Origin: a virus | Virus record (IMG/VR): IMGVR_UViG_3300020171_000021 | Coordinates: 1 to 64,000 of that record | DNA length: 64,000 nt | Reading direction: 5' to 3' (one strand) | Shown here: one piece after another, positions 17,126 to 55,115 of the stretch | Layout of the letters: each line of letters opens with the position of its first letter | How positions within the stretch are numbered: the first letter of the stretch is position 1 | Program-made: the position numbers and the translations under genes | Notes under the pieces: generated by a model | Told to the model about the DNA's origin: nothing | What the model saw: only the letters and a program-made list of their open reading frames with translations | Database searches by the model: none

Positions 17126-17129
17126 AATT

Positions 17130-37713: not shown

Positions 37714-38289
37714 ATGTGGATAGAAGAAGCAGCTAAGTGGGTATCACAAGAACAATTAAAATACGTTCAATGTAAGTGCGGGTGTGGAAACAAAATAATA
37801 ATTAAGTTACAGCATTATTATACAAAAATTCCAGATTTTATTACTGGACATTTTAGCAAAACTGAAGATTTTAAAAAGAGTGCGTCTGAAAGAGGAAAAC
37901 AGCAAATACATCCACCTTGTTCTGATAATACACGAAAAAAATTATCTCAAAAATTTAAAGGACGTATATCTGGAAGAAAAGGCAAAACAGCGTGGAATAA
38001 AGGAAAAAAATTTCCTGAATACTGTGGTATAAATAATCCTAAATATAGTGGTGGAAAACGCATGTCAATTGCCAGAAGCAATCATAAACGAAGACTTAAA
38101 GGATTTATTCCATTAACACTTAATAATCCATATTCTGAAGAAATAATATATCATCATATTAATCCCAATTTACCTTATGTTGTACCTTGTCCAAAAAGAA
38201 TTCACGAAATATTTAGAGAAGGAAAAGAAAACCAAAGACACTGTGAATATGTAAATTTATTTCTTGGTATAATAAAAATAGATTTTTAA
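37714..38289 (+). CDS. HNH-like homing endonuclease with NUMOD-like repeats
   Basis: The N-terminal CKCGCGNKIIIKL...GH module resembles that of the other mobile nucleases here. Lys/Gly-rich NUMOD3-like segments follow (residues 60-110), and a late YHHINPNLPYVVPCPK segment suggests a divergent HNH/beta-beta-metal site. It lies between the tRNA cluster and the minus-strand genes, with converging stops. Confidence 0.75.
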   Translation: MWIEEAAKWVSQEQLKYVQCKCGCGNKIIIKLQHYYTKIPDFITGHFSKTEDFKKSASERGKQQIHPPCSDNTRKKLSQKFKGRISGRKGKTAWNKGKKFPEYCGINNPKYSGGKRMSIARSNHKRRLKGFIPLTLNNPYSEEIIYHHINPNLPYVVPCPKRIHEIFREGKENQRHCEYVNLFLGIIKIDF

Positions 38290-39044
38290 CCTTTATTACG
38301 GCTTATAGATGTCGTCCATCCACGCGCTAAGCCTGTTTTAATGACACCACGAAAATCTTGATGAACAACATAGGTATAGAATTTTCGTTGTGATTTATTT
38401 AACGAATCAAAAAATGGCCTAACTTTTTCTTCTATTAGTTTACCGATAAAGTCTCGGTCTAAAGACATTTGAAACAACGCAGGCTCTTTAAAAAATAGGG
38501 CTCTCGTTTGCGAAATTATTTGTTTATTTAAACTTGATGAATCTTGAACATTAATTAAAAAGCAAATATCTAAATGCCTGGCTATAAACGATAACTTTTT
38601 CATAGTTTCGTTTTGGTCAGTGTACATTTTATTTGACTCCAAAATATTAGCTGCATCGTCAATTATGATGGTGCAGCCTTTATCTGCTGGTGCAGTATTT
38701 CCATTTGGAAATATAAAATAGCAGTCATAATTTGTATCACTTTCTTCAATATGTAGTTTTGATACAGGAATTATCCAGTTTGGAACTTTTAGCATATTTA
38801 TTGCATAAACTGGTCTGCCTAAAAATTCAGCCAGCCTCATACACAATGCTGTCTTACCCCCTCCCGACTTTCCAACAACAAGATTTATACCCCAGGGCTC
38901 TTTTTTAAAAATAGATAAAAATTCTTGTTTTGACACTCCAGCACCCCCAAAATTATTTATTGATGACTGTCCACTTGTTTGACCTGGCGACCGCATTCCT
39001 TTTCCAATTGCTATATCAAATAGTATAGCGAGCGGATTATCCAT
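38286..39044 (-). CDS. P-loop ATPase, putative DNA-packaging motor (FtsK-HerA/A32-like)
   Basis: Walker A VGKSGGGKT lies at 57-65, Walker B CTIIIDDA at 124-131 and a polar FLINVQDS sensor strand near 168. The compact 252-residue form with a short N-terminal extension resembles the packaging ATPases of tailless archaeal and eukaryotic viruses more than AAA+ enzymes. A Zot-like or other P-loop role is possible. It is one of only two minus-strand genes. Confidence 0.65.
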   Translation of the reverse strand: MDNPLAILFDIAIGKGMRSPGQTSGQSSINNFGGAGVSKQEFLSIFKKEPWGINLVVGKSGGGKTALCMRLAEFLGRPVYAINMLKVPNWIIPVSKLHIEESDTNYDCYFIFPNGNTAPADKGCTIIIDDAANILESNKMYTDQNETMKKLSFIARHLDICFLINVQDSSSLNKQIISQTRALFFKEPALFQMSLDRDFIGKLIEEKVRPFFDSLNKSQRKFYTYVVHQDFRGVIKTGLARGWTTSISRNKG

Positions 39045-39377: not shown

Positions 39378-41390
39378 ATGCTAAATATTGATGCTGAATT
39401 TAATGAATTATTGCTTGTCTTTAGACCAAACCCACGTGGACTGGGTGCAATAGGCGAATTTGGCGAATTTGGGTCAGCATTGGGAGAACTCTCTGCCGTT
39501 GAACAAGAAATACATGCACAGTGGAGAGGGATAGTTAAATCTGGATTGGGAGAATTGTCAGATATTACAGCGGATATTGCAGCAGCAAAAGCAGCAATTT
39601 CAAAAGCAACAGATATTGGTGGGCAAATAAATTCATTAAAAAGTAGAATTTCACGATTACAAAATAAAATTGCTAAAGTTAAAAATCCAGCAGCAAAAGC
39701 AAAAATTCAAAGTAGATTAACAGCAGCATTGCCACAATTAGCTATTGCAGAGGGCGCATATAATGCAATGAAATCAGTAGTAGGAGCCGCTACAGATTTT
39801 CTTAAAAATGCAGGTATAGCGGTTGAAGAAGCAAAAAAAGCAGTTGTTGAAACTGCTGGCAAAGCAAGAGAAAAAGCAATGGAAGTTGTTGGGAAGGCAA
39901 AAGAAATGGCTGTAGCTGCTGGAGAAAAAGTAAAAGCAGCAGCAGGTGCAGCAGCAGCAGCAGCAAAGGCAGCAGCGGTAAGAGTAAAAGCAGCAGCAGG
40001 TGCAGCAGCAGCAGCAGCAAAGGCAAAAGTTGCTCAAGTTGGTGTAAAAGCAAAAGCAGTTGCAGCGGCGGCGGCGGCAAGAGCGGCACAGATGGCGGCG
40101 GCAGCAAAGGCTGCAGCGGCTCAAAAGGTAGCCCAAGCAAGAGCAATGGCTGCCGCAGCAGCACAAAGAGTTCAACAAGCGGCAGCAGCAGCACGTGCGA
40201 GAGCAGCACAGATAGCAGCTCAAGCGGCGGCGACAGCAAGAGCTCGGGCACAAGCAGCAGCACAAAGAGTTCAACAAGCGGCAGCAGCAGCAGGTGCAGC
40301 AGCTGCGGCGGCGGCAGCAAGAGCAGCACAAGTAGCTGCGTCCGCACGTGCAGCAGCCGCAAGTGCAGCGTCAAAAGTTAAATCGTGGTTTGGATTTAAG
40401 GGACTTGAAGAATATAACGGACTTGGAGTAGTATTTACAGCTGGTGCAGCAACTCTTGCAATTACTGCAGCAATGGCAGCATTACAAATAGCCAATATGT
40501 ATATTGGGCAAGGAGAAGCGGTTCCAGAAGATAGCACAGCAATTCCAGAAACTATCCCTATGGTAGAAATGGAAAAATATAAAGATGCGGCTGCTGATTG
40601 TTATAATTCTGCAGTAGCTCAAGGATATAAGGTTGATACTGCTGAAAAATCTGCATTGCTTGAAAAAACTTGCAGAGAAAGAGCAGCAGTACAATTTGCT
40701 GTACCATCTGATATGATTCCATATACAGGTACAGATTTAATAGATGAATTTGAAGTTCCTCCAGGATATACTCCAGGAGTAGATTATCCAATTCAATTAC
40801 CAGAAGGCGGCGGATGTTTTAGTTTATCTACAGGAATGCCGGAACCTTGCAGAGATGTGGAACCATATGTTCCTCCAGGAGGATATACACCAGGATATGA
40901 TATTCCAACTGGAGATTATTATCCAGAGCAACCATTACCAGATGGAAGAAGAATTATTTATCCTACGCCAAGTGAACCAGGAATTTATGATGAATTTGAA
41001 ACTTTAGTTCCGGGTATGGAACCAGTTCCAGGATATCCGCCAGGTATGCCAACAACCGTTCCAAGTTATCCTCCAGGTGTGACTCCATCATATCCAGGTT
41101 ATGAACCAGGTATAACTCCATCTTATGAACCAGGAGCACCACCAACTTATGCACCAGGTGTAGAAATGCCATCAGGTGTAGAATGTCCAGATTATCCAGA
41201 TATGACTGATGCTGAATATTGTTCATATTTTCCACAATGTTGTGAAGACATTCCAGAGGGATGCCCAGATATTCCAGATATGACCGATGACGAATATTGC
41301 GCAAACTTCCCACAATGTTGTGAAGAAGCAGGTGAAGCAGAAACTGGTAAATCACCTTGGGAATTTGACACAGGCATATTTGGGTTTTGA
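39378..41390 (+). CDS. Ala-rich coiled-coil membrane protein with Cys-repeat tail
   Basis: Residues 1-60 hold NPRGLG and GEFGEFG motifs. Residues 65-335 are a very Ala-rich helical region, with a DNA-level repeat at 39926 and 39986. A membrane helix follows (about 352-375), then a Pro-rich YxPG-type region (450-600). The tail has two copies of a C-x-D-x-P-x-M-T-D-x-E-Y-C...CCE motif. The layout matches the protein at 42085, so the two are paralogues. A structural role in a membrane-bearing virion is inferred. Confidence 0.75.
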   Translation: MLNIDAEFNELLLVFRPNPRGLGAIGEFGEFGSALGELSAVEQEIHAQWRGIVKSGLGELSDITADIAAAKAAISKATDIGGQINSLKSRISRLQNKIAKVKNPAAKAKIQSRLTAALPQLAIAEGAYNAMKSVVGAATDFLKNAGIAVEEAKKAVVETAGKAREKAMEVVGKAKEMAVAAGEKVKAAAGAAAAAAKAAAVRVKAAAGAAAAAAKAKVAQVGVKAKAVAAAAAARAAQMAAAAKAAAAQKVAQARAMAAAAAQRVQQAAAAARARAAQIAAQAAATARARAQAAAQRVQQAAAAAGAAAAAAAARAAQVAASARAAAASAASKVKSWFGFKGLEEYNGLGVVFTAGAATLAITAAMAALQIANMYIGQGEAVPEDSTAIPETIPMVEMEKYKDAAADCYNSAVAQGYKVDTAEKSALLEKTCRERAAVQFAVPSDMIPYTGTDLIDEFEVPPGYTPGVDYPIQLPEGGGCFSLSTGMPEPCRDVEPYVPPGGYTPGYDIPTGDYYPEQPLPDGRRIIYPTPSEPGIYDEFETLVPGMEPVPGYPPGMPTTVPSYPPGVTPSYPGYEPGITPSYEPGAPPTYAPGVEMPSGVECPDYPDMTDAEYCSYFPQCCEDIPEGCPDIPDMTDDEYCANFPQCCEEAGEAETGKSPWEFDTGIFGF

Positions 41391-41396
41391 GGAATT

Positions 41397-41846
41397 ATGA
41401 CAAAAATACTATACAATAGAGCAGCAAAAACTTTTATGGATGCTATTAGCGCAGGATTTGACGAAGATGGTGCTTATGAAAAAGTAAAGAAGAAGCACGG
41501 AAAAGTATTAGCAGATGCGGTTTATGCTGAGGCATTAACTGAAATGAAGGCGATGAAGAAAAATCCACGCGAAAGACTCGACGTTGTTAAGAATCAAAAA
41601 GGTGTAATAAGAATAAATCCAGCCCAATTAAGTATTCTTGTTGACGCACATCGGTCAAAATCAGGATTTTGGTATGCAAAATCTGAAACCCAGTCAATGA
41701 ACGCAGCAAAATTAGCATCGAAAGATATGCTTAAACGGGTTCCAAACCAAAATCGCGAAGGATATAAATTAACTGATAAAGGTAAATCACTATTAGAAAG
41801 ATTTTTAAAATCAGTTCATCAATCAGGAAAAATAAGAAGAGATTAA
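41397..41846 (+). CDS. Winged-helix-like protein with NPR motif, 149 residues
   Basis: The first half is a helical repeat-like region ending KKNPRERLD. The second half (about 77-145) resembles a winged-helix domain, ending GYKLTDKGKSLLERFL, the wing and last helix of MarR-like folds. Similar domains end the proteins at 43166 and 44992. Binding to virion DNA or regulation is possible. Confidence 0.65.
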   Translation: MTKILYNRAAKTFMDAISAGFDEDGAYEKVKKKHGKVLADAVYAEALTEMKAMKKNPRERLDVVKNQKGVIRINPAQLSILVDAHRSKSGFWYAKSETQSMNAAKLASKDMLKRVPNQNREGYKLTDKGKSLLERFLKSVHQSGKIRRD

Positions 41847-41847
41847 C

Positions 41848-42072
41848 ATGGCAGCACAGAAAAACTACAGCAAATACATAGAGTCCGCAATTCGTGAATC
41901 TGAAGAACGTGATATACCCACAATACTAAGTAAAACTGGAGTTATAAACAGAAAAGAACTTATAAAATTTTTAAATCACGAAGTTAATCTTGCAAAAAAA
42001 CCTGCAAAAAAAGGAGACGCTTATTCAGCAGGATATATGGATGCAATGAAGTCAGTTAGAGAATTTATTTAA
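41848..42072 (+). CDS. Hypothetical protein, 74 residues
   Basis: A charged helical protein one base after its neighbour, starting ATTAACATGGCAGC like the next gene. The C-terminal GDAYSAGYMDAM helix is distinctive, but no family is known. Confidence 0.55.
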   Translation: MAAQKNYSKYIESAIRESEERDIPTILSKTGVINRKELIKFLNHEVNLAKKPAKKGDAYSAGYMDAMKSVREFI

Positions 42073-42084
42073 AGAATGATTAAC

Positions 42085-43164
42085 ATGGCAGCAAAAAGAA
42101 GAGATTATTTTAAATTAAAAGGTAGTGAAGCCTTTCAAGTAGACAGGACTGGGGCTCCATTAGGCGAGCTTGGAATATCAATACCAAGTCTAACAGATTT
42201 AACAAATTTTTTGTCAAATGCAAAGAAAGTTTTGTCAGACACCACAAAATTGGGTGCAAGATTACAAAATATAAGAAACGCAATCGGTAAAATAAAAACC
42301 ACCAGTGTTCGAAATAATATTGCGCAGAGATTTGCATCTGCGTCTGCAAAATTTACCACAATTTCAAAGCAACTTGATATTATACGAAAAGCTTATTCTG
42401 CTGCCGTTAATATAATCAATTCTATAAAAGGTGCGGTTGGACTTAGAGGATTACGTGGAAACGGACTTGGACTGTCTCCACAAGCACTTGCATTAATTCC
42501 TACAGTTATAAAAGGAATATCAGTTCTTGCCATTGCAGTTGGAGCAATATACACCATAAATAATTATCTTAGTATGGTTGAAAAGGATATTGCAAAACAG
42601 ATTCAAATAGAACAAATTACAGCGGCTAGAGAGAAAGAAGCAACACAGGCAGATATTTATAGACACCAGCAAGAGGCAATTTATGAATATCAGGTACAGC
42701 AGCCCGCCGTATCAGAATGTCCGGATTTGCCGCAAATGAGCGATGCTGAATATTGTGCAAGATATCCAAACTGCTGTGAAGCTGCGCCAGAGTGTCCAGA
42801 TTTACCGCAGATGAGTGACGAAGAGTATTGTGCTAGATATCCAGATTGCTGTGAAGCTGCAGAAGGCGGGGGATTTTGGGGTCTTAGTGGAAGAGACCAG
42901 AGATGGGATAATGTTCCGCATGTAAGACGCATCGGTGTAAAGATGGCAGGACTTTCAGCAAGGAATAGGATGTATGATAATAAACCCGAACATCAAGTCG
43001 CAAGAATTCAAGGACTTGGGTCATCGTCAGACCAGAACAGAATGAATCGCAGAAAGATGGGACTTGAGAAAGCAAGAGACCAGAGATGGGATGTCTTAAG
43101 ACAAGCACGGCTCAGCGGAATATTCCAGCAACTAAAGAAAGCAATGACAGAGGCAGGTATTTAA
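42085..43164 (+). CDS. Membrane protein with double Cys-repeat module (paralogue of 39378)
   Basis: ATG 42085 is preferred over 42076 by likeness to its neighbours' starts. GELG and GLGL motifs flank a helical region (30-120), then a membrane helix (about 138-160). Two copies of CPDLPQMSDxEYCARYPxCCE lie at 212-258. The tail has R-x-Q-R-W-D repeats. The order is the same as in the 39378 protein, without its Ala-rich part. Disulfides in the repeats would suit an external virion position. Confidence 0.75.
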   Translation: MAAKRRDYFKLKGSEAFQVDRTGAPLGELGISIPSLTDLTNFLSNAKKVLSDTTKLGARLQNIRNAIGKIKTTSVRNNIAQRFASASAKFTTISKQLDIIRKAYSAAVNIINSIKGAVGLRGLRGNGLGLSPQALALIPTVIKGISVLAIAVGAIYTINNYLSMVEKDIAKQIQIEQITAAREKEATQADIYRHQQEAIYEYQVQQPAVSECPDLPQMSDAEYCARYPNCCEAAPECPDLPQMSDEEYCARYPDCCEAAEGGGFWGLSGRDQRWDNVPHVRRIGVKMAGLSARNRMYDNKPEHQVARIQGLGSSSDQNRMNRRKMGLEKARDQRWDVLRQARLSGIFQQLKKAMTEAGI

Positions 43165-43165
43165 C

Positions 43166-43363
43166 ATGACAACAAAAATAATAAAAATCACGCATAAACA
43201 ATTTGATGCGTTGCATGAGGCTATGTTTTCTGATAGATATTTAATACAGAGTCAATCAGACCGTAGAACCGCGAAAACTTTGGAAACAAAAGGACTTTTG
43301 AAAGAAAGTAAACAAAGAGATGATGTATATCATCTAACTGTTAAAGGAAAAACACTTTTTTAA
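43166..43363 (+). CDS. Small winged-helix-like protein, 65 residues
   Basis: The sequence ends DDVYHLTVKGKTLF, the same strand-wing pattern as in the 41397 and 44992 proteins. It may be a free-standing copy of that domain. It is the shortest of the three. Confidence 0.55.
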   Translation: MTTKIIKITHKQFDALHEAMFSDRYLIQSQSDRRTAKTLETKGLLKESKQRDDVYHLTVKGKTLF

Positions 43364-43420
43364 AAAGTATTTTCCAAAAAGTATTCCGAGGAATAAATAA
43401 TTATAGAACCAGGATTTAAT

Positions 43421-43780
43421 ATGGCAAGAATTTTAGCACAGAATCCAATTGAAGCAGCACTTTATGAAATGGAACATCTTGGGCTTGGTGATATTGGTGT
43501 GCTTGTTAGAAAAACAACTGCACCAACATCAAGACGAAAAACTGCAGCAGTAACAAGAATTCTTCCAGCAGGCGGAGTAGGTGCAAAACCAAGAACAGCA
43601 GCAGAGATTCAGCTGGAATCAGAACGCATCAAAGCAGAGACGGTGTCAAAAACTCAACCATCGCTTATTGAGTCTACAATGCAACCTTTTATTCAACTTG
43701 GCATGATAGGCATTGGCGCCATTCTTGCAGTGAACTTGCTTCCCCCGATTCTTGAAGCAATAAGTAAAAAGAGGAATTAA
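43421..43780 (+). CDS. Single-span membrane protein, 119 residues
   Basis: An N-terminal QNPIEAALYEMEHLGLGDIG segment resembles the motifs of the larger virion proteins. A basic middle region and a C-terminal hydrophobic helix (about 90-110) follow. It is probably a virion membrane protein. Confidence 0.6.
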   Translation: MARILAQNPIEAALYEMEHLGLGDIGVLVRKTTAPTSRRKTAAVTRILPAGGVGAKPRTAAEIQLESERIKAETVSKTQPSLIESTMQPFIQLGMIGIGAILAVNLLPPILEAISKKRN

Positions 43781-43781
43781 A

Positions 43782-44084
43782 ATGAAACTTTTAAACATGC
43801 TAATTTCAGCATTTAATGAAATAGATGGAACAGCTCCAGAATATAGAGCTGCAGTGTATGGTAATGGCAGATTGGGAGCAATAAGTCCAGCTGATATGTA
43901 TAAACAATACCAAACAAGAACACAATTTAAAATGCCTTCTATTTGGGGAACAGCAAAAAAAGTAATCAGTGCACCATTTAAAAAATTCCAGGAAAGACAA
44001 TCTGCAAAAAAGAAAACAAGAGGAACATATCCGTCCTTACCAGTAACCATTTTGCCGAGAAGCAGAAGCAGAAATAGAAGGTAA
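43782..44084 (+). CDS. Basic hypothetical protein, 100 residues
   Basis: The N-terminus contains GNGRLGAIS, a variant of the GLG motif seen in neighbours. The C-terminus is very Arg/Lys-rich and may bind DNA. No family is recognised. Confidence 0.6.
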   Translation: MKLLNMLISAFNEIDGTAPEYRAAVYGNGRLGAISPADMYKQYQTRTQFKMPSIWGTAKKVISAPFKKFQERQSAKKKTRGTYPSLPVTILPRSRSRNRR

Positions 44085-44087
44085 AAC

Positions 44088-44366
44088 ATGAGTAAATTTT
44101 TAAAAAATTTTATAAAATCTGTTGAAAATTTTAATATAATGTTATCAAAAGATGACGGTGGTAAATTATTAAAAAAAAATATCAGAAATGTTATTGCACA
44201 ACGGTCTGAAGAAGAAGAAGATGGTGCCAAACAATATGATAAATATGCACAAGAATTAAAAGATTATGGTGCACCAACAGAAATAGTAAACGCGTTTCGT
44301 TTGATGGCATTAGATGAATTTCAACATCATTTTATTTTAAATAGATTACTTTATGGATTAAAATAA
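44088..44366 (+). CDS. Ferritin-like half-bundle protein, 92 residues
   Basis: Two helices carry EEEEDGAKQYDKY (about 41-53) and ALDEFQHHFIL (about 73-83). These resemble the E...Y and D-E-x-x-H metal residues of rubrerythrin-like proteins, in a half-sized form that would need to dimerise. Iron binding is not certain. Confidence 0.5.
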   Translation: MSKFLKNFIKSVENFNIMLSKDDGGKLLKKNIRNVIAQRSEEEEDGAKQYDKYAQELKDYGAPTEIVNAFRLMALDEFQHHFILNRLLYGLK

Positions 44367-44621
44367 ATGCCAGAAAATCTCTATAAGCGGTTTCATCATA
44401 AAAATCCAGACCGAGTTCAAAAACTTGAATTTGAAGTTCCAAAAGAACTTACTCGGCTTGGTGTTATTACTGCCATAGAGTATAAAGCCACTCCTCCATC
44501 AAAATTTACTGAAGGAACATATCGTCATGAATTTAAGAAGCCAAAATTACTTGCAGCAGATAAGAATGGCGTTCTATATGTTATAAAAGTAAAAATAACC
44601 AAACGGGGGATTGAAGGTTAA
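44367..44621 (+). CDS. Hypothetical protein, 84 residues
   Basis: The protein begins right after the ferritin-like gene and has a beta-rich middle section. It contains KNPDRV, close to the NPR motif of its neighbours. Family unknown. Confidence 0.6.
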   Translation: MPENLYKRFHHKNPDRVQKLEFEVPKELTRLGVITAIEYKATPPSKFTEGTYRHEFKKPKLLAADKNGVLYVIKVKITKRGIEG

Positions 44622-44995
44622 TGTTTAAATTTTTCAAAAAAACAAAACCAAAACCTGAGCCTGTTCGACTTGAAGACCTAATCATAAAAACAAGACAAGT
44701 TCGTCCTGGTGTATGGCGTGATAATCCCAGAAAAACTGGCTATACTGAACAGCCATCAGAAAAAGATTGGAAAGAATTTGATGCATATGAAAAAAGAATA
44801 GAAGCACGTCACGCTCAAATAAAACAAAATCCCAGATTAAAAGGTCATCATAAAATTTATATTATTCGAACAATGGCCGGTATTCCACTTGGGGCATACG
44901 GCGGTCTTGAACTTACAAAAAAATATGCTCAGAAATGGGCAGATAGAACAAATGAACAAATAGCAATTGACGTTATGACGGTGCCAAAGAAATGA
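44621..44995 (+). CDS. Hypothetical NPR-motif protein, 124 residues
   Basis: Two NPR motifs occur (DNPRKT near 35 and QNPRLK near 67). The second half (residues 73-120) appears as a compact mixed domain. The gene overlaps its neighbours on both sides. Confidence 0.6.
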   Translation: MFKFFKKTKPKPEPVRLEDLIIKTRQVRPGVWRDNPRKTGYTEQPSEKDWKEFDAYEKRIEARHAQIKQNPRLKGHHKIYIIRTMAGIPLGAYGGLELTKKYAQKWADRTNEQIAIDVMTVPKK

Positions 44996-45498
44996 CAATA
45001 CAAGAAGACAGCACAAAACATTATCCTGGATTTAAAGGCGGCGCAAAACGTCCAACGTATGAATTCAGATACATAAAAGTTCCTGGTGGGCATAATCACA
45101 TAAAAGATGAACCTGGATTGTCCACTTTTGTTAAAACAAAATATACGATTACATTCACGTATTACGGCAAAAAGAAAAAGCAGGTAGTTTGGGCAAAGGA
45201 TGAAAAAGAAGCATTTGAAATGATAAATGACCTTTATCCAGGAATCAAGGGGTCATTGAAGAAAAATCCACGTGGCGCCGGTATTCCGATTAATTCAATG
45301 CAACTTGACTTAATGGTAAATGCACATAAACAAAAAGCAGTTTATACAGATAATAACAAAGAAAGAATTGCAATGATACGACTGGTTATTAGTGGACTTA
45401 TGTGCCCAACCGATAAAGAAGGAGACATATATAAACTTACTTCACATGGAAAAAAATTATTAATTGAATATCTTAAAGAACAGGAGAAATACACATGA
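44992..45498 (+). CDS. NPR-motif protein with winged-helix-like C-terminus, 168 residues
   Basis: Residues 1-85 form a beta-rich domain and end KKNPRGAG. Residues 92-165 match the winged-helix pattern in the 41397 protein, ending YKLTSHGKKLLIEYLK. The NPR motif thus lies at a domain border in both proteins. Confidence 0.65.
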   Translation: MTIQEDSTKHYPGFKGGAKRPTYEFRYIKVPGGHNHIKDEPGLSTFVKTKYTITFTYYGKKKKQVVWAKDEKEAFEMINDLYPGIKGSLKKNPRGAGIPINSMQLDLMVNAHKQKAVYTDNNKERIAMIRLVISGLMCPTDKEGDIYKLTSHGKKLLIEYLKEQEKYT

Positions 45499-46265
45499 TT
45501 CATCAGGGAATAACAATTCTTGACCAAAATTTAAAACCATGTGATTCTATAGGAATTGGCGGAGATTGGAAAGTAAAAATTTTAGACAAGATTGTCAATT
45601 GGGCTAAAAATCAGGATACAAAAATTGTGTCAGTGGTAAGACTTGTTCATCCAGGAGAAGCGGCAGCATTTGGTGTTGATGATACTATTAGTATTGGAAC
45701 TCAAGGGACAGGAACTGTAAAATTTGGAATTTGGAAAGTATATGGCGATGTGTCAACAATTCCAAAAGGTAATCCTAGACTTACTCAGGAGGAATTACAT
45801 AAAAAATATTTAAATGTTGCAAAAGATTATTATATTAAGGCTTCTGATGTGAAAAGATGGGAGAAAATAAAAAAACAATCATATCGTCCATTTACTCCAA
45901 ATACTCATTATATTCCATTTACTAAATCAAATCCCAGAAAGAAAGAAATGAACATGGGTGCACCTGATAAAAAAGCTTCACTGTCAAAAATATTAGATGA
46001 AATTGACGAAACGCCAAATGAATATAGATTCAGAATGATGCCACCAAGTAAATTCCACGAAGATAGTCTCAAATACGGCAGCAAATCAATTACCACAGGC
46101 GTCCGTGCAATTTATGGATGTTTAAAAGATGCATGGGCACCACGATTACAAAAATGTAAAAAAGGCATGGTTATGCAGTCATTACGATTAAGCAAAGATG
46201 TATTTCATTCAGCAACTGAAGCAGCAGGATGGATTGCAAAACATACAAAACCCAGGAGAGAATAA
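45495..46265 (+). CDS. NPR-motif protein, 256 residues
   Basis: NPR occurs twice (GNPRLT near 94 and SNPRKK near 148), dividing the sequence into three parts. Part one (1-90) is beta-rich; the last part (residues 155-256) is helical. Possible maturation sites. No family is recognised. Confidence 0.65.
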   Translation: MIHQGITILDQNLKPCDSIGIGGDWKVKILDKIVNWAKNQDTKIVSVVRLVHPGEAAAFGVDDTISIGTQGTGTVKFGIWKVYGDVSTIPKGNPRLTQEELHKKYLNVAKDYYIKASDVKRWEKIKKQSYRPFTPNTHYIPFTKSNPRKKEMNMGAPDKKASLSKILDEIDETPNEYRFRMMPPSKFHEDSLKYGSKSITTGVRAIYGCLKDAWAPRLQKCKKGMVMQSLRLSKDVFHSATEAAGWIAKHTKPRRE

Positions 46266-46267
46266 TT

Positions 46268-46504
46268 ATGTCAAAATTTAATCAAGCAATATTTGTCGGT
46301 GGAGCGTTAGGCGCACTTGTTGTTATCTTAGGATATGCAGCAATAAAAGACTATAAAAATTATCGCAATCAGCCTCCATTAACAACAGTATCGAGATTTG
46401 GAAATAAATCCAGATTTGCATTAGATGGATTGGGAGTAGGAAAAAGTTATACCTTCCCAAGAAATTCAATGCCGGTAGACCCAACATTTGTGAAAGAGGT
46501 TTAA
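46268..46504 (+). CDS. N-anchored membrane microprotein, 78 residues
   Basis: ATG 46268 follows GGAGAGAA. A hydrophobic helix spans about 7-25. The C-terminal part has a GLGVG motif, shared in type with the other virion proteins. Confidence 0.6.
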   Translation: MSKFNQAIFVGGALGALVVILGYAAIKDYKNYRNQPPLTTVSRFGNKSRFALDGLGVGKSYTFPRNSMPVDPTFVKEV

Positions 46505-46526
46505 ATTCTTTAGTTTTTACCAAAAG

Positions 46527-46537
46527 GTTATAAACCA
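46527..46537 (+). promoter_or_regulatory. TATA-like promoter
   Basis: GTTATAAACCA lies about 40 bases before the start codon at 46573, which has CAGAGGA. Confidence 0.45.
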
Positions 46538-46572
46538 CAAAAAGAAAATAGTATCATATAAACAGAGGAAAA

Positions 46573-46803
46573 ATGTCAGAATTACCATTAAAGCATTATA
46601 TTATCTTAGCCGGATTGTTGTTTACAGTAGGTATAGCTACTAATTTAATTGGTGCATATGCTTGGAATACGTATTTGAATAAACAAAAAGAAAAAACAAT
46701 CATAGCAAAATTAACAGCTATTCGTGCAGCGCAAATAAGAAAAGGGAATAGTTATACCGCAGCACATTCAGCAAGAATTATAGAAGGAGATAGGCGATAT
46801 TAA
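46573..46803 (+). CDS. Membrane microprotein, 76 residues
   Basis: One hydrophobic helix (about 8-30) precedes a basic Ala-rich helix. The stop overlaps the next start. Confidence 0.55.
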   Translation: MSELPLKHYIILAGLLFTVGIATNLIGAYAWNTYLNKQKEKTIIAKLTAIRAAQIRKGNSYTAAHSARIIEGDRRY

Positions 46804-46955
46804 TGACTGACACTAAATCTTTTCTCTGGGTATTTATACTTGGACTTGGAAGTGCTTTTTTAGCAAATCATGTTTATCAGACGTATGTAATTGACAAACC
46901 AGTAACCAAAAAACAAATTGCAGATACTATGGATAGAAAACTTAAGGTGGTTTAA
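46803..46955 (+). CDS. Membrane microprotein, 50 residues
   Basis: An N-terminal hydrophobic helix (about 6-22) with a GLG motif, and a charged tail. Translationally coupled to both neighbours. Confidence 0.55.
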   Translation: MTDTKSFLWVFILGLGSAFLANHVYQTYVIDKPVTKKQIADTMDRKLKVV

Positions 46956-47207
46956 ATGTCAAAAATTCTTAATGAACTAAGACACGTAACTAATACAGAC
47001 CTAAAGAAAATAGAACACATAATGAAAAAAGATATTGACGTTCTTGAAGAGATGAGCGAACGAGACCACGCGTGGAGCAAAAATTTAGAAAAAGTTGGCT
47101 ACAAAGATTTAGCTAAATTTTACAAAGGGTTAGCAGAAAAAGCCACAGAATTATCAGAAGAGTACATATCACTTCAAGTTGAAATTGATGAAAGAAAGGA
47201 AATGTAG
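46956..47207 (+). CDS. Helical hypothetical protein, 83 residues
   Basis: The product is highly charged and helical, with a likely coiled coil across its length. It begins directly after the upstream stop. No family known. Confidence 0.6.
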   Translation: MSKILNELRHVTNTDLKKIEHIMKKDIDVLEEMSERDHAWSKNLEKVGYKDLAKFYKGLAEKATELSEEYISLQVEIDERKEM

Positions 47208-47216
47208 GTGACTACC

Positions 47217-47339
47217 ATGGGTAAGAAAATCGGCGAAGAGAAAATCAAAAAGAAAGATGGATATATCTATTATGTAGGTAAAGATGGATACGTCCACGAA
47301 GCAAAGATGAATAGAAAAGGAAGAAAGAAGGGAACTTAA
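47217..47339 (+). CDS. Lys-rich microprotein, 40 residues
   Basis: The pattern DGYIYYVGKDGYVHEAKM between Lys-rich ends suggests a tiny beta-sheet protein that could bind nucleic acid. It starts after a GGTGA site at 47207-47211. Confidence 0.5.
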   Translation: MGKKIGEEKIKKKDGYIYYVGKDGYVHEAKMNRKGRKKGT

Positions 47340-47498
47340 ATGAAACTAGATTTAATAAACATGGCCGCTCTCGGTATCATATCATATCTTGGATATAAAG
47401 CATTCTCAGAAGGTATTCCGTCAGACCAGATGGCACAAAGTGTTACTGCAGCACCCGCAATGGTTCGTAAAGTTGTAAGACGACGGGTCAGCGCATAA
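47340..47498 (+). CDS. 52-residue membrane-associated microprotein
   Basis: An amphipathic to hydrophobic N-terminal helix (about 4-22) is followed by an Ala-rich stretch and a very basic end (VRRRV). It is directly adjacent to the previous stop. Confidence 0.5.
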   Translation: MKLDLINMAALGIISYLGYKAFSEGIPSDQMAQSVTAAPAMVRKVVRRRVSA

Positions 47499-47529
47499 AT
47501 TAAATTTTGAAAACGGAGAAAGACCCCGT

Positions 47530-47844
47530 ATGGACTCAGCAAAAATATTAGAAAAACTTTCAAATGATATGTCAACAGTAACCGCTGGAATGACAGACAT
47601 GAGAGCGGAGTTAGGGGTCGTGTCAACAAAAGTTGACCATTCGATTGAAATTCACGAAACCATTTGTAAATATCATGAGTCACAATTTAAAACTCATGAC
47701 GAACAAATAGAACAATTGCAAAAAGACCAAAAAGACATAAATCAATCTATGTCGGCTTCCGCGGGGGCATTAAAATTAAGTTCTTGGCTCGTTGCAACGG
47801 TGATTACCCTAGTTGGTATTTATATTGCATTTGTTCCTAAATGA
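47530..47844 (+). CDS. Coiled coil with C-terminal membrane anchor, 104 residues
   Basis: Residues 1-75 form a coiled coil, and a hydrophobic helix fills about 84-101. This layout resembles phage haemolysin/XhlA-type or virion membrane proteins, but the likeness is only general. Confidence 0.6.
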   Translation: MDSAKILEKLSNDMSTVTAGMTDMRAELGVVSTKVDHSIEIHETICKYHESQFKTHDEQIEQLQKDQKDINQSMSASAGALKLSSWLVATVITLVGIYIAFVPK

Positions 47845-47856
47845 TTAAATACTTGG
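47844..47856 (+). promoter_or_regulatory. TATA-box promoter of the adhesin operon
   Basis: ATTAAATACTTGG lies 38 bases before the start codon at 47882, preceded by AGAGATAAGAAGAA. Confidence 0.55.
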
Positions 47857-47881
47857 CATACATATAAAGAGATAAGAAGAA

Positions 47882-48124
47882 ATGGCAGCATACGACGAAG
47901 AAATTGCAAGAAATCTTTACGGTTTACAAGAAATGATTCAATGTCAATCAAAGCCAGCTTCTGCACCTGTTTCGGTTATGAGAACAATGCCAAGACAAGG
48001 GCAGAGTGTCGGAATTTCTGATGGAACTGTTGTAAAGTTTGCAATGATTGTTGGAATAATGGTCGTTGCATATATGATGATAAAAGGTTCATCAAATTAT
48101 TCTCATCAAGGTAGAAGAAATTAA
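47882..48124 (+). CDS. C-terminally anchored small protein, 80 residues
   Basis: A hydrophobic helix lies at about 53-68 (VGIMVVAYMMI). The first half is polar. It heads the adhesin/fibre operon and might anchor that structure. Confidence 0.55.
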   Translation: MAAYDEEIARNLYGLQEMIQCQSKPASAPVSVMRTMPRQGQSVGISDGTVVKFAMIVGIMVVAYMMIKGSSNYSHQGRRN

Positions 48125-48132
48125 AATAAAAG

Positions 48133-48690
48133 GTGATTATTATTGTAGCATCGGTCAGGGTCAAAGAAATTAACGGAGCAGCTCCAGGAACATTTGCAAC
48201 AATTACAACTGCAAGATTTGCAACAATGGATTCAAACAATCCAGGAATATCAAATCCTATTCCTATTCCTACAACAGGAGTTAGACGCGCATATAAAAAA
48301 GCATTTGCTCTTGCATTTGCAGGAACTTTCACACAAATAAATAATGTGACTATTTATACAGATGGCACTGACTTCGGGACAGGAATTCTTACATTGATAG
48401 GTTCAAATGTAGGGGCAGGATGTCATGTACTTGGTTCATATAGAGCCGCATTAGGACAGTTAGGAGTTGACGGGTCACTTTTAACGTATGCAAGACAGGC
48501 AGGTAGTGTAATTACAGGAACGGGTTCATTCTTTACATATACATCTGGGGCTAAAAAACTTGTTGGTTCACAGATATTTGCAGCTGCAGGAACCACAAGG
48601 TTTGTTGCATTGCAATTAAAAGTAGGGTCAAATGCAGTGCAAGGTGTTCTTTCAAGTGAGACAATAACTTTTACGTATGACGAAATTTGA
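48133..48690 (+). CDS. Beta-rich virion or adhesin protein, 185 residues
   Basis: The sequence is rich in Gly, Thr and Ala, with repeated short strands, like a beta-sandwich surface protein. The start is unclear: GTG 48133 lies inside the AGGTGA site itself, so an ATT at 48142 is a possible non-standard start. Family unknown. Confidence 0.6.
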   Translation: MIIIVASVRVKEINGAAPGTFATITTARFATMDSNNPGISNPIPIPTTGVRRAYKKAFALAFAGTFTQINNVTIYTDGTDFGTGILTLIGSNVGAGCHVLGSYRAALGQLGVDGSLLTYARQAGSVITGTGSFFTYTSGAKKLVGSQIFAAAGTTRFVALQLKVGSNAVQGVLSSETITFTYDEI

Positions 48691-48698
48691 GGTGAATC

Positions 48699-49028
48699 AT
48701 GAAAGGGTTTGATTCACTTGCATATATTTGGTTAGCAGAATATCGCGATGGTGCAATATTAAAACAATTTGAAATTGATGGAAAAGAACATCTTTTTTCT
48801 GAAGTTGACCAATTAAAATTAAAAAGATTTGGATGGATTCCAGTTGACTCTAGTTTAAAGCCAATCAGTATTTCTCTTAATGAAGGAGATAAATTAATTT
48901 GTTATAGAAAGAATTTTCTTTCTTTTATGACTGGTGCTCAAAGTGTAGTATTCGTTCTTGGAAAAATAGGACATCCATTAATTTGGATATTTGCAGATGA
49001 AATTGTAATTACAGAGGAAAATATATGA
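48699..49028 (+). CDS. Hypothetical protein, 109 residues
   Basis: A beta-rich small protein beginning after GAGGTGAATC. It overlaps the following adhesin gene by four bases, so both probably join one structure. Confidence 0.6.
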   Translation: MKGFDSLAYIWLAEYRDGAILKQFEIDGKEHLFSEVDQLKLKRFGWIPVDSSLKPISISLNEGDKLICYRKNFLSFMTGAQSVVFVLGKIGHPLIWIFADEIVITEENI

Positions 49029-50200
49029 CTGATTTGGTAACAAATTTTGGAAAAGCAACAGTTTCACTTGGATATCTTTCTACTGATTTAACAATAGTTC
49101 TCACAGCTGGTCACGGAGCAAAATTTCCATCAGCCGCGACTGCTAACAGTGCAACACATTTTAATGTTGTTTATTATAATTCAACAGATTATCCAGACCC
49201 AGCAGATGACCCTAACGTTGAAATTGTTCGAATTACAAATCGTTCTACTGATACATTAACTGTTGTTCGTGCACAAGAAGGAACAACTGCAACCGATAAA
49301 AATATTGCAGGAAAAACATATAAAATGATTCTTGCGCCAACAAGAAAAACAATTTTAGATTTACAAATAAAAGAACCTTCTGAATATGTTACAACAGTGT
49401 TACATGGAAACACTCCTCATAGAGATGCAGGTGTAGCATTTACCATTGGCTCTTTTATGAAATATGGAAACATAAAAAAACTTACAATTCGCGGAAGTTA
49501 TACATGTGGAACTTTATATTCTTGGGCGGCGTATGCAAGTAATTTAACAGGAATAACTCCAGCGCTTGGAAGTATTGCATTTTATGGAAAAACTGGAACG
49601 GTAATCATTGATGATTATGTTGGTTTGGATAATGAAATTATGCGAATCTCTGGAACCGCTGGAGCATATCTTACTGTAACTAGAGGCGTGAAAGGTACAA
49701 ACCCCACTTATCACGAACACGCTGCAGTTATAACAAAAATGATAAACGGTGTTCGTGTTGCTTTATATCCAAATAGTTTTAAGAAAGAGGCAACAAAAGT
49801 TTTAGAGTTGAATAATGCCTTTATTTATTCTGGACTTACTTTTGGTTCAATTAATGTAAGTGGTACTGTAATAAGAATGACTGCGGTACCAAGAAATCTT
49901 AATAGTAACGATTATATTTTAGTTCAAGATACAATACCAGAAACTGCAATTGTCCAGAAAACATTTGGAAGCGCAAGAGGTGCTTCAGATAATACTATAT
50001 TTGTAAAAGGAACGCTTGCGCTTCATGTATCTGCAAAAAATGTTCAGAAAGTTATAACATATGACATACCAACTCCATATAAAGGGTCTTCTAATACTTT
50101 ATACGGGCATCTTTATATTGATGAAAGACTTCCTGCTGGAACAATTGGTATAACACTTGGAATTACCTGTGATAAATTTGGAAGTATAGCACTAGGTTGA
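49025..50200 (+). CDS. Phage-tail/adhesin-like structural protein, 391 residues
   Basis: Residues 40-105 follow a pattern common in viral structural proteins: a YNSTDYPDPADDP segment, then EIVRIT and TVVRAQEGT. A similar unit recurs near 190-240 (VTRGVKGTNP and YHEHAA). The rest is beta-rich. It is probably part of a spike or fibre. Confidence 0.7.
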   Translation: MTDLVTNFGKATVSLGYLSTDLTIVLTAGHGAKFPSAATANSATHFNVVYYNSTDYPDPADDPNVEIVRITNRSTDTLTVVRAQEGTTATDKNIAGKTYKMILAPTRKTILDLQIKEPSEYVTTVLHGNTPHRDAGVAFTIGSFMKYGNIKKLTIRGSYTCGTLYSWAAYASNLTGITPALGSIAFYGKTGTVIIDDYVGLDNEIMRISGTAGAYLTVTRGVKGTNPTYHEHAAVITKMINGVRVALYPNSFKKEATKVLELNNAFIYSGLTFGSINVSGTVIRMTAVPRNLNSNDYILVQDTIPETAIVQKTFGSARGASDNTIFVKGTLALHVSAKNVQKVITYDIPTPYKGSSNTLYGHLYIDERLPAGTIGITLGITCDKFGSIALG

Positions 50201-50204
50201 TATT

Positions 50205-51041
50205 ATGCCAACCGTTGATAATAGAATTTTAGAAGCTCTGAAAAGACAGCAAGTAGTGACAGAATATATTGTTTATCCTCAACAAAATTCAAATATAGAA
50301 AATTATCAAATTTTACTTTCTAATGTTCCTTCTACGTCAAAAGAAGACGTTCTAGTTGTGCATAAAAATAAAATTATTCCGCATTGGGTGGAATCAAAAG
50401 GAAAAGTGTGGACAAAAATTCCAAACTTATTGACAAAAACACCATTAAAAATATATACATTAACTGGTAATCCTTCTGCCGCATCCGCAAGCAACGGGAC
50501 GAATACGTTTGTGGCATGGCATGGTGTAGCAACATCAAATTTTCATGATAGTAATATTATTCCATCCGGCTCAATTATATATGAGGCAAAAGGAAGGTCT
50601 ACAATTGTTTCCGGTAATGAAGTATTGATGTGGGGGATAGGTGTAGATGGAAATCTTGAAATTAATTCTGGAACGGATGGTGTTGCATTAAAGTCATATG
50701 AATGGAGTAGTGTCCCTGGTAGATATTTTTTAACAACGAATGGAGCAGCATATACACAGGTTCAAGGTACTGGTGGAAAATATGGATATAATGTATGGAA
50801 ACAACTTAAAATAGTTATTGATTCTACACCGAGCGCACATGGTTATGTTGACGGGGTTGAACAGGCAACTGGAATTACTACTAACTTACCGAACGAAAAT
50901 TTAGGATTAGCGATGTATACCTCGGCGGGAACAATGGCTCAAGAATATTCATTTGTCCGCAAATACGCCTCGCCTGAGCCGATTGTTAAAAAAATTAGAA
51001 CTTTAAATAAATCATTATTACTCAAAGAATTGATGAGGTAA
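50205..51041 (+). CDS. DUF2341/LamG-like adhesin, 278 residues
   Basis: The N-terminus (KIPNLL.KTPLKIYTLTGNPSAASASNG region, residues 65-100) matches the DUF2341 pattern. The C-terminal part has the GRYFLTTNG and VDGVEQATG strands of a concanavalin/LamG-like sandwich. Such domains bind sugars in surface proteins. It lies in the fibre operon. Confidence 0.7.
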   Translation: MPTVDNRILEALKRQQVVTEYIVYPQQNSNIENYQILLSNVPSTSKEDVLVVHKNKIIPHWVESKGKVWTKIPNLLTKTPLKIYTLTGNPSAASASNGTNTFVAWHGVATSNFHDSNIIPSGSIIYEAKGRSTIVSGNEVLMWGIGVDGNLEINSGTDGVALKSYEWSSVPGRYFLTTNGAAYTQVQGTGGKYGYNVWKQLKIVIDSTPSAHGYVDGVEQATGITTNLPNENLGLAMYTSAGTMAQEYSFVRKYASPEPIVKKIRTLNKSLLLKELMR

Positions 51042-51044
51042 TTT

Positions 51045-51824
51045 ATGTCGTACGGCTCTTTTGAGTACGGTGGAGCTGCATATGGTGGGGCAGTTGTAGC
51101 ACCAACAAAAACTATAACTTATACACTTGATGCACGTATTTTAAAACAAGCTACACTTTCATTTACAATAGATGCACGTGTTTTAAAAACGCAATCAAAT
51201 ACATTTACATTAAATGCAATATTATTAAAAACGCAATCAAATACATTTACATTAAATGCAATATTATTAAAAACGCAATCAAACACATTTACACTAAATG
51301 CAGCATTATTAAAAATTGATATAAAAACCTTTACTTTTGATTCAGCATTATTTAAGTCAAATATAGTAAAAACTTTTACCATCAGTTCAACATTATTAAA
51401 AGCAGATAATTTAAAGACATTTACTTTTGATTCTGTATTATTAAAACCTATAACAAAAACTGTTGTGTTTGATTCAGCATTATTAAAAACTATATCGGCG
51501 TCATTTACTCTTAATGCAAATCTTTTAAAAACAAATGTAGCTCAGTTTACAATAGATTCAATTTTGGTTTTTAATCGCACAAAAACTTTTACAATAGATT
51601 CAAAATTAGTATTTTTTACCACATATACAAAAACATTTGGTCTTGATGCAAAACTTGTTTTTGCAAAGTCTACAGTGCTTACAATAGATGCGTGGACATC
51701 ATATAAGGAGCAAATATATCAGATGCAAGCAGATATTGCAGACCTTAAGGCAAATGGCGTGGGTGGTGGAGGAGACGTGACGGTTGGAACATTATATGGG
51801 TCTGACGGAATAAAGAATTGGTGA
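51045..51824 (+). CDS. Fibre-like protein with about 13 short beta repeats
   Basis: From residue 24 to 210, a unit of about 14 residues repeats 13 times, with a consensus K-T-F-T-[LIF]-[DN]-[AS]-x-L-L-K. Regular two-strand units of this kind can form a beta-solenoid or extended fibre. The C-terminus has a coiled coil (MQADIADLKANG), typical for trimerisation. A host-binding fibre is inferred. Confidence 0.72.
   Translation: MSYGSFEYGGAAYGGAVVAPTKTITYTLDARILKQATLSFTIDARVLKTQSNTFTLNAILLKTQSNTFTLNAILLKTQSNTFTLNAALLKIDIKTFTFDSALFKSNIVKTFTISSTLLKADNLKTFTFDSVLLKPITKTVVFDSALLKTISASFTLNANLLKTNVAQFTIDSILVFNRTKTFTIDSKLVFFTTYTKTFGLDAKLVFAKSTVLTIDAWTSYKEQIYQMQADIADLKANGVGGGGDVTVGTLYGSDGIKNW
51186..51311 (+). 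repeat. Three tandem 42-bp direct repeats
   Basis: Copies begin at 51186, 51228 and 51270. The first two are identical, and the third differs at a few bases. They code for three of the 14-residue fibre units and show recent unit duplication. Confidence 0.85.
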
Positions 51825-51829
51825 TTAAA

Positions 51830-52282
51830 ATGATTCATGAATTAAGAAAAAAAGGATTAATTTACATACGAAAAAGCAAAACAATTACTGCTGGAGAAAT
51901 GGGAGTGTTGTTAGCAAATTGGATTTCTCCTAAATATGATGAAACTGAAGATGGTTATGAGATACAAACAAAAGCAGAAATAACACATTTAGGAAATGCC
52001 ATAGCAACTAATTTATTTTATGAGATACAATACGGTGAAAAATGGCGGTTTGACTATCAAATTGCTCCTCCTAATCGTCCATTAGAATTTCCAGTTTCGT
52101 TGCCGGTTGAAACCGAGGATATAAATATTATAGTAGATAATAAAAGTACAGCAGATGCGGTTGCAGAAATTTGCTTGATTGGAATTTATGAAAGAGAAAG
52201 ATTTTCAGTTATTGAAAAGAGACGGCCTACTGCAATTCATTCATCAAGATTGGCTTCGGTTGACGGAAGACGGGTAATATGA
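51830..52282 (+). CDS. Hypothetical structural protein, 150 residues
   Basis: ATG 51830 is preferred over TTG 51818. The protein is beta-rich with a short helix at the start. It follows the fibre gene and ends where an HNH gene begins, with a four-base overlap. Confidence 0.6.
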   Translation: MIHELRKKGLIYIRKSKTITAGEMGVLLANWISPKYDETEDGYEIQTKAEITHLGNAIATNLFYEIQYGEKWRFDYQIAPPNRPLEFPVSLPVETEDINIIVDNKSTADAVAEICLIGIYERERFSVIEKRRPTAIHSSRLASVDGRRVI

Positions 52283-52908
52283 ATAAAGGAAAAAGAACAG
52301 AGGAGCAGAATAGAAAAAATTCAGAACGACAAAAAGGTAAACGAACTGGTGCAGATAATCATTTCTTTGGTAAACATCATACACTTGAAGCAAAAAAAGC
52401 AAACTCAGATTGGCATAAAGGAAAAACACAATCTGAAGAATCAAATAAAAAACGGTCTATTGCACATAAAGGCATACCTTGTTCAGAAAAAGCTAAGAAA
52501 AAAATATCGATTGCAAATATTGGTAGACGTCGCACAGAAGAACAAAAGAAGAAAATGTCAATAGCACATAAAGGAATACCTACAGGAAGAACTGGTGAAA
52601 AAAGTCCAAATTGGAAAGGCGGAATATCTTTTGAACCGTATTGTTCAAAATTCAATAAACCTTTAAAAGAAAAAATTCGTGATAAATTCGAACGGAAATG
52701 TTTTCTCTGTAATAAACCCGAGTCTACTGAAAAAACTTGTTTATCAGTTCACCACATTGATTATGATAAAGACCAAGGATGTAATGGAAAAACTTTTGAA
52801 TTAGTTCCTTTATGCAGAAGTTGTCATTCAAAAACAAATGGTGAACGAGAAGAACAACAAATTATGATTATAAATAAATTGAGGGATATGAATGACACTT
52901 GTAACTAA
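52279..52908 (+). CDS. HNH endonuclease with NUMOD3 repeats
   Basis: Residues 1-110 hold several NUMOD3-type repeats (HKGIPCSEKAKKKIS pattern). The HNH domain shows CFLCN near 134, VHHIDYD near 153 and CRSC near 175. It is a free-standing homing-type nuclease placed between the fibre operon and the main virion genes. It overlaps genes on both sides, a typical neat insertion. Confidence 0.9.
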   Translation: MNKGKRTEEQNRKNSERQKGKRTGADNHFFGKHHTLEAKKANSDWHKGKTQSEESNKKRSIAHKGIPCSEKAKKKISIANIGRRRTEEQKKKMSIAHKGIPTGRTGEKSPNWKGGISFEPYCSKFNKPLKEKIRDKFERKCFLCNKPESTEKTCLSVHHIDYDKDQGCNGKTFELVPLCRSCHSKTNGEREEQQIMIINKLRDMNDTCN

Positions 52909-53170
52909 AACAAATATGGTAACAAAACCTAGCGGTGATTATTTTTATACTTATATTCCTTCTGAAATTGCACAAAAGTTAGGATTAAGAAAAGGACAAG
53001 AACATCTTATATGGGGGTTGTATGGAAGTAAAGCAGAGATTACAACATTACCACTTGATGTTGCAAGAAAAATTCTTTCTGATATTCAACCACAAATTAC
53101 TACTGCTACTAAAAAATCGCCAAGAATTTTTATTAAAAATGGTAGAGCTACCGATGACGATTTGATTTAA
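52892..53170 (+). CDS. AbrB/SpoVT-like swapped-hairpin protein
   Basis: The YTYIPSEIAQKLGLRKGQ segment near 20-37 is the AbrB/SpoVT DNA-binding pattern (I-P-x-x-I-x-x-x-L-G-L-x-x-G-x). The protein has 92 residues. It lies just before the strong virion operon and could regulate it through the direct repeats at 53178. Confidence 0.7.
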   Translation: MTLVTKTNMVTKPSGDYFYTYIPSEIAQKLGLRKGQEHLIWGLYGSKAEITTLPLDVARKILSDIQPQITTATKKSPRIFIKNGRATDDDLI

Positions 53171-53177
53171 GCTAAAA

Positions 53178-53281
53178 ACCGTACATTGACCGTACTTTCT
53201 TTTTTGAACCGTGGCTTTACTATTAATAAAAAACATAGTATCGGTAACAATAAAAAGTTCTGTGTAGACGTTCTGTCTACA
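53178..53281 (+). promoter_or_regulatory. Leader with direct repeats and hairpin before the main virion operon
   Basis: ACCGTAC occurs at 53178-53184 and again 11 bases later at 53189-53195, with ACCGTGG at 53208. The first spacing is one DNA turn. TGTAGAC (53263-53269) pairs with GTCTACA (53275-53281). An AAGAGG site leads into 53316. Operator sites and a structured leader are both plausible. Confidence 0.45.
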
Positions 53282-53315
53282 AATCAATCAATAAATAAAT
53301 AAAAGAGGTAAAAAT

Positions 53316-53774
53316 ATGTATGGCGAGTCACTCATGTTAGTGAACCCAAGAAAGACATCTAAGCGTTCAATGCTTGGAAAACTTGGAATGGGCGGAAAAT
53401 TGACCAGAGGCGTCACAATCTACGACGCAGCGACAGGCGCAGCGGGCGCAGTTGTAGTATTGGTACTTCCAAAAATGGCACCCAGCGGGTGGGGCTATGG
53501 CATCAAAGGTGTCATGACTTCAGCACTAGTAACGGTAGCCGCAGGGGCAGTAACCTATATGGCAACAAAGAACAACAGATACGCATACGCAGTAGTTCTC
53601 GGCGGAGCAATCATCACGGGCCTTAGGGCATTGAAGGTTATCACCAAGACAGCAGGCGTAAGACCGATTGGTCTCGAAGGTGCAGAAATGGCCGGACTTG
53701 GGCAAATCCCAGAGGAAGAGCTTCTTACCGGTATCGACGCATATCGTAGCGATGATTCAGTAAAGGTGTTATAA
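53316..53774 (+). CDS. Membrane-type structural protein, 152 residues, high-GC codons
   Basis: The N-terminus has LMLVNPRKTSKR, the NPR motif shared with other virion genes. Three hydrophobic segments follow (about 47-62, 72-86 and 90-106). The C-terminus has MAGLGQIPEEE with a GLG motif. The base composition is clearly richer in G and C than its neighbours, as in highly expressed genes. A major membrane protein of the virion is the best guess. Confidence 0.65.
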   Translation: MYGESLMLVNPRKTSKRSMLGKLGMGGKLTRGVTIYDAATGAAGAVVVLVLPKMAPSGWGYGIKGVMTSALVTVAAGAVTYMATKNNRYAYAVVLGGAIITGLRALKVITKTAGVRPIGLEGAEMAGLGQIPEEELLTGIDAYRSDDSVKVL

Positions 53775-54333: not shown

Positions 54334-54357
54334 GCGTCTAAACCATAGGTGAATAAA

Positions 54358-54741
54358 ATGGCAAAGACGTTTTATATCTTAGGAGAAATAACCCCGAAGC
54401 GCCCCGGCGAGTCGAAGATAGTTATCGGCAGGGCAATTTTAGCTCCGGGTAAAGAAGCAGTACATGCTGAAGATGTAAGACTCCGTCGGATGATTTCATT
54501 CGACGCAAATAGTTTTGTTCCAGGAACACTTGGGATAGTAAATGCAGCTGGTACAGGTCTTGTTTTTACAACAAGATTAAGTCCCAGAATAGCAGCAGCA
54601 GTAGCATACGCAAGTATCTCTCCTGCCCCAAGGAACTTTGCATCCATTGTTGTGATACGCGGTTCACTTAACGGAACAAATCTTATGAGCACAACCAGGA
54701 ATGGTAGCGTTGCATTCAACTTTATGGCAATAGGTGAATAA
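54358..54741 (+). CDS. Tandem virion protein paralogue 1, 127 residues
   Basis: The protein opens KTFYILGEITPKRPGE and ends SVAFNFMAIGE. It is a small beta-rich domain with a conserved AVHAEDVRLRR stretch. Its final codons (ATA GGT GAA TAA) also form the GGTGA ribosome site of the next paralogue. Confidence 0.7.
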   Translation: MAKTFYILGEITPKRPGESKIVIGRAILAPGKEAVHAEDVRLRRMISFDANSFVPGTLGIVNAAGTGLVFTTRLSPRIAAAVAYASISPAPRNFASIVVIRGSLNGTNLMSTTRNGSVAFNFMAIGE

Positions 54742-54742
54742 G

Positions 54743-55114
54743 ATGGTAAAAACATTTTACATATTTGGAGAAATAAATCCAAAGCACCCACATGAACCAA
54801 AAATAGTTGTAGGACGTGCTGTGCTCGGGCAAGCTTCAGAAGCAGTACATGCTGAAGATGTAAGACTCAGACGCCTTATCCACTTTGAAGCCTCTGGATT
54901 TTTAGCAGGAACATTAACAAACATGGTTGGTACATGCATTCAAGTAAGATTGCATCCCAGACTTGCAGCAGTTCCTAAATACGGAAGCATCACGCCAACG
55001 CCAAGAAATGCAGCATCACTTGTTGTAGTTTCAAGAGCGCTTAACGGAACAAATCTCGGCGGTGCAACTAGAAATGGTAGCATTGCATTTGATTTTGTGG
55101 CGATAGGTGAATAA
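54743..55114 (+). CDS. Tandem virion protein paralogue 2, 123 residues
   Basis: The sequence aligns with paralogue 1 along its length: the GEI.PK, AVHAEDVRLRR, LHPRLAAV and NGSIAFDFVAIGE segments are all present. It is the most diverged at its start. ATG 54743 is chosen by alignment. Confidence 0.7.
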   Translation: MVKTFYIFGEINPKHPHEPKIVVGRAVLGQASEAVHAEDVRLRRLIHFEASGFLAGTLTNMVGTCIQVRLHPRLAAVPKYGSITPTPRNAASLVVVSRALNGTNLGGATRNGSIAFDFVAIGE

Positions 55115-55115
55115 A

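Follow-up and report, generated by a model that had tools for sequence, protein, structure and literature searches.

We identified a tandem four-cysteine module, undescribed in the libraries searched, in two paralogous proteins (A and B) encoded in the window, that is, the whole 64,000-nucleotide stretch of viral DNA analysed. Each unit is 21 residues long and follows the consensus CPDxPxM[ST]DxEYCx2[FY]PxCCE, with a cysteine spacing of C-x11-C-x5-C-C that is identical in A and B. The best supported reading is that A and B are anchored in a membrane, face outward and hold disulfides, and we give it about an even chance of being correct. Judging from its sequence, the unit itself probably forms a small knob on the surface, held together by disulfides.

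The four-cysteine unit and its two carrier proteins

The features on which the analysis is based are as follows.

39378..41390, + strand: protein A, 670 aa, beginning with an N-terminal helical domain and carrying two Cys units near its end
40428..40484, + strand: hydrophobic segment of A, probable transmembrane (residues 351-369; hydropathy scan)
41184..41246, + strand: Cys unit A1, A residues 603-623, CPDYPDMTDAEYCSYFPQCCE, exact consensus match
41262..41324, + strand: Cys unit A2, A residues 629-649, CPDIPDMTDDEYCANFPQCCE, exact consensus match
42076..43164, + strand: protein B, 362 aa, with an A-related N-terminal helical domain, a hydrophobic segment, two Cys units and a 102-residue net-basic tail
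42484..42540, + strand: hydrophobic segment of B, probable transmembrane (residues 137-155; hydropathy scan)
42718..42780, + strand: Cys unit B1, B residues 215-235, CPDLPQMSDAEYCARYPNCCE, exact consensus match
42793..42855, + strand: Cys unit B2, B residues 240-260, CPDLPQMSDEEYCARYPDCCE, exact consensus match

The initial annotation had described two tandem consensus copies in each protein, and this was borne out by four exact copies, two in A and two in B. A degenerate 60-base DNA pattern of the unit matched the window at those four sites only and had no match in 100 dinucleotide shuffles, giving a chance expectation of 0. Tandem Repeats Finder reported the arrays as 78-bp and 75-bp repeats. 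The description of both proteins as ending or nearly ending with the units applies to A only, where 21 residues separate the array from the C-terminus, since the array of B is followed by the 102-residue tail. The start previously given for B, 42085, is the second in-frame ATG, and the ORF list places it at the ATG at 42076. By eye, residues 263-362 of B (42862-43161) contain a degenerate repeat around GLSxRDQRWDN that is absent from A.

Comparison of the six pairs of units gave pS values of 0.38-0.93 against pN values of 0.05-0.26, each pair offering only some 10 synonymous sites. A core of CPD.P.M.D.EYC...P.CCE is invariant across all four units. The unit is thus conserved as protein despite divergence at synonymous sites, which shows that the Cys module is under selection. 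Units within one protein are identical at 17/21 and 19/21 positions, and units of A and B share 13-14 of 21.

The relationship between A and B extends beyond the module. BLASTP aligned the two proteins across it with an E-value of 6e-24, and their N-terminal helical domains (A 59-162, B 38-146) aligned with a local score of 86, which was reached by none of 1000 residue shuffles (35±6) and none of 1000 7-mer block shuffles (42±8). None of the remaining proteins of the window scored above 54 against A or B. A and B are therefore paralogous, as had been proposed, and the relationship runs from the N-terminal domain through to the Cys array. In A, the N-terminal helical domain is followed by an Ala/Lys-rich helix (residues ~170-335), the hydrophobic segment, an acidic Pro-rich linker and the two Cys units; the Ala/Lys-rich stretch of ~165 residues and the long Pro-rich linker have no counterpart in B.

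Searches for relatives and structural models

Profiles from Pfam-A, PHROGs and NCBIfam gave weak matches to A and B below the cut-offs, none of them over the Cys array, and a phmmer search of PDB chains revealed no sequence relative with a solved structure (best E 0.27). AlphaFold2 modelling of the tandem module from a two-row alignment resulted in a pLDDT of 63 overall and ~74 in the best blocks, and predicted, with modest confidence, short helices in both units from the [ST]-D-x-E-Y-C stretch on. Foldseek found no match to this low-confidence model in PDB or BFVD. The earlier remark that the unit resembles no known domain thus holds in the Pfam, PHROG, NCBIfam, PDB and BFVD libraries.

No close relative of A, B or the unit was seen in IMG/VR, INPHARED, PLSDB or GTDB, but records very near the window were possibly excluded, so that this absence is no proof of an orphan. 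Within IMG/VR, the strict unit pattern had no match, and no relative was confirmed with patterns from peptides of A, B, the ATPase described below, the candidate capsid protein 53776 and PolB. Searches by tblastn with A and B against 50,697 phage records, and with the Cys module against plasmids, found no match. A loose scan of GTDB returned 16 matches, of which the unit-like ones lay in short or Cys-rich out-of-place frames and none was tandem; we judged these to be due to chance. B had two weak matches in 96 genomes from the phylum of one of these chance matches, and the one inspected lay among housekeeping genes.

Loose unit patterns in IMG/VR recovered one short frame and a single family, that of a long protein rich in Cys which bears MopE and VWA-like motifs and is encoded on the marine-phage contigs L003, L004, L005, L007 and L008. 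This MopE/VWA protein, which looks exported, has the same C-x11-C-x5-CC spacing and shares a YC-x2-[FY]-P-x-CC core with the Cys unit. However, it lacks M-[ST]-D and carries one non-tandem unit inside a larger Cys-rich protein. The unit profile matched the MopE/VWA proteins with E-values of 0.06-0.55, not significant in this small search of 2936 frames, and we therefore do not claim homology. Like the small disulfide-rich repeats found in surface proteins of viruses and cells, the Cys unit is short, tandem, four-cysteine and placed beyond a membrane anchor, but it differs in that no library family matches it in sequence or fold.

Membrane topology and genome context

A Kyte-Doolittle window scan found one segment above threshold in each protein. 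All cysteines lie beyond it (0 before and 12 after in A; 0 and 8 in B), including the four of A outside the units (408, 432, 480 and 491). A single membrane segment in each protein, with the cysteines past it, is supported, in line with the membrane anchoring suggested in the initial annotation. Elsewhere in the 39-58 kb cluster cysteines are scarce: leaving out the HNH-like protein 52279, the proteins encoded there contain 15 cysteines in 4490 residues (0.33%). Cysteine counts are even in A, in B and in each unit, and pairing needs even numbers.

The more basic flank of a membrane segment usually lies on the inside (the positive-inside rule). A has 48 Lys/Arg and 23 Asp/Glu residues before the hydrophobic segment and 11 and 53, respectively, after it, and this asymmetry would place the cysteines outside, a pattern to be expected if the N-terminus lies inside and the C-terminal part is an oxidised ectodomain outside. 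The tail of B, with 20 Lys/Arg and 10 Asp/Glu residues past the module, is the main misfit to this simple topology. Some archaea also use disulfides in the cytosol (PMC3177088), and the cysteines alone are thus no proof of an outside location.

The whole record is 66,971 bp long and possibly a fragment. It contains archaeal-type replication genes, as expected of an archaeal-type dsDNA virus: a clamp-loader-like protein resembling the RFC small subunit (E 2.7e-64, below the equivalog cut-off of that model) and a family B polymerase whose top matches are mostly from haloarchaeal viruses at ~25% identity. These genes indicate that the virus probably infects archaea. Also encoded are a D5-type helicase, an ERCC4 nuclease, an RNA ligase, a transglutaminase-like protein, a QueE-like radical-SAM protein and, by a weak match, a TGT/DpdA-like protein. 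Genes like QueD, QueE, FolE and a divergent TGT/DpdA lie at 16378-18361, 18759-19118 and 21855-23234 (QueD and FolE by reading only), a set that suggests 7-deazaguanine modification of the viral DNA.

A search of the whole record for one terminase family, Terminase_6N, found no match, while the identical search detected it in two other viral records, and none of the ORFs of at least 400 aa matched a terminase. A tailed virus (Caudoviricetes) was set aside because these searches found no large terminase subunit, and the virion is probably tailless. A P-loop ATPase is encoded at 38286-39044, with a score under the AAA cut-offs; its assignment to FtsK/HerA was unsupported by Pfam, in which FtsK_SpoIIIE did not find it. 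No capsid protein of either the jelly-roll or the spindle-virus type was recognised in the record, and single-sequence AlphaFold2 of the candidate capsid protein 53776 gave a pLDDT of 36. The lack of a recognised capsid protein of these types, and of any tblastn match to A or B in the phage records, sets the virus apart from membrane-containing tailless archaeal viruses such as HCIV-1 (PMC4958249) and from tailless and spindle-shaped ANME-1 viruses (PMC9894754). It resembles them in combining archaeal virus genes with membrane proteins, and no terminase was found in it.

Downstream of A and B, and in the same orientation, lie a gene at 49025 with matches to PHROG tail-fibre families (best E 6.6e-10) and one at 50205 with a DUF2341 match, which is lectin-like. 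B is flanked by three genes for winged-helix-like proteins (41397-41846, 43166-43363 and 44992-45498) that share the domain end YxLTxxGKxL and align with scores of 92, 56 and 52, where shuffles averaged 26-31. With these genes in the cluster, a structural role for A and B does not follow from their position. With no capsid protein recognised and no relative found in the searches, their placement in the virion is a guess by neighbourhood.

Proposed arrangement and alternatives

In the arrangement we favour, A and B would both derive by duplication from a single-pass membrane protein of an archaeal virus, probably a tailless one. Their basic, helical N-terminal parts would lie on the cytoplasmic or virion-interior side, and the hydrophobic segment would span the virion or host membrane, leaving the C-terminal part outside. 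Each 21-residue unit would be closed by two intra-unit disulfides (1-3/2-4 or 1-4/2-3) wrapping a short helix that begins at [ST]-D-x-E-Y-C. In A the paired knobs would be carried by an acidic Pro-rich stalk, and in B they would lie near the membrane; their most likely role is that of rigid tips on surface spikes, for attachment or protein docking. More tentatively, and with some doubt, the unit could be a new disulfide-held minidomain that forms the exposed ends of two spike types, one long-stalked (A) and one membrane-proximal (B), in a family of tailless archaeal viruses not described so far.

Since the neighbourhood is the sole basis for a virion location, and winged-helix-like genes are interspersed in the cluster, A and B could instead act outside the virion, in the infected-cell envelope, where they might take part in processes such as virus exit, cell adhesion or superinfection exclusion. 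We regard this as rather unlikely, as A and B share orientation and a general cluster with the fibre-like genes, and two copies, one with an Ala/Lys-rich basic rod, suit a structural role.

The remaining alternatives concern the cysteines. Binding of a metal (Zn or Fe-S) in a reducing compartment, for example in docking to another viral protein, is unlikely: each unit does offer four cysteines plus conserved Asp/Glu, and a small Rubrerythrin-like (ferritin-fold) protein encoded nearby in the presumed structural cluster (44088-44366; Pfam E 7.7e-5) hints at an anaerobic host, but the spacing with its vicinal pair is not, to our knowledge, among those usual for zinc or Fe-S, no metal-binding Pfam family matched, and no cysteine is found on the other side of the membrane segment. 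A network in which the cysteines bridge A and B chains to one another would fit two paralogues with two units per chain and identical spacing. Against it, the compact 21-residue unit, with its vicinal CC, invariant Pro and Tyr and even number of cysteines, has the look of a folded minidomain, and we consider such a network quite unlikely.

If the membrane-anchored, disulfide-holding reading is right, the module would be a very short, tandem and easily expressed disulfide module, and a handle for recognising the surface proteins of an archaeal virus that otherwise resists classification. As small modules rich in Cys are in themselves common in ectodomains, what is gained is a new sequence family and not a new principle; the unit is small and new but of a familiar type.

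Two further observations concern the same region. At 54349-55445 lie three paralogous genes in tandem, whose products (112-130 aa) are 49-62% identical; the first has no family match, and the three are possible capsid or decoration proteins. The tripeptide NPR occurs eight times in the proteins of the 39-58 kb cluster (mean 0.56 and maximum 4 in 500 shuffles), in ORFs 39378, 41397, 44621, 44992, 45495 and 53316 (39378-53774), twice in two of them, and may be a motif that these proteins share for processing or interaction.
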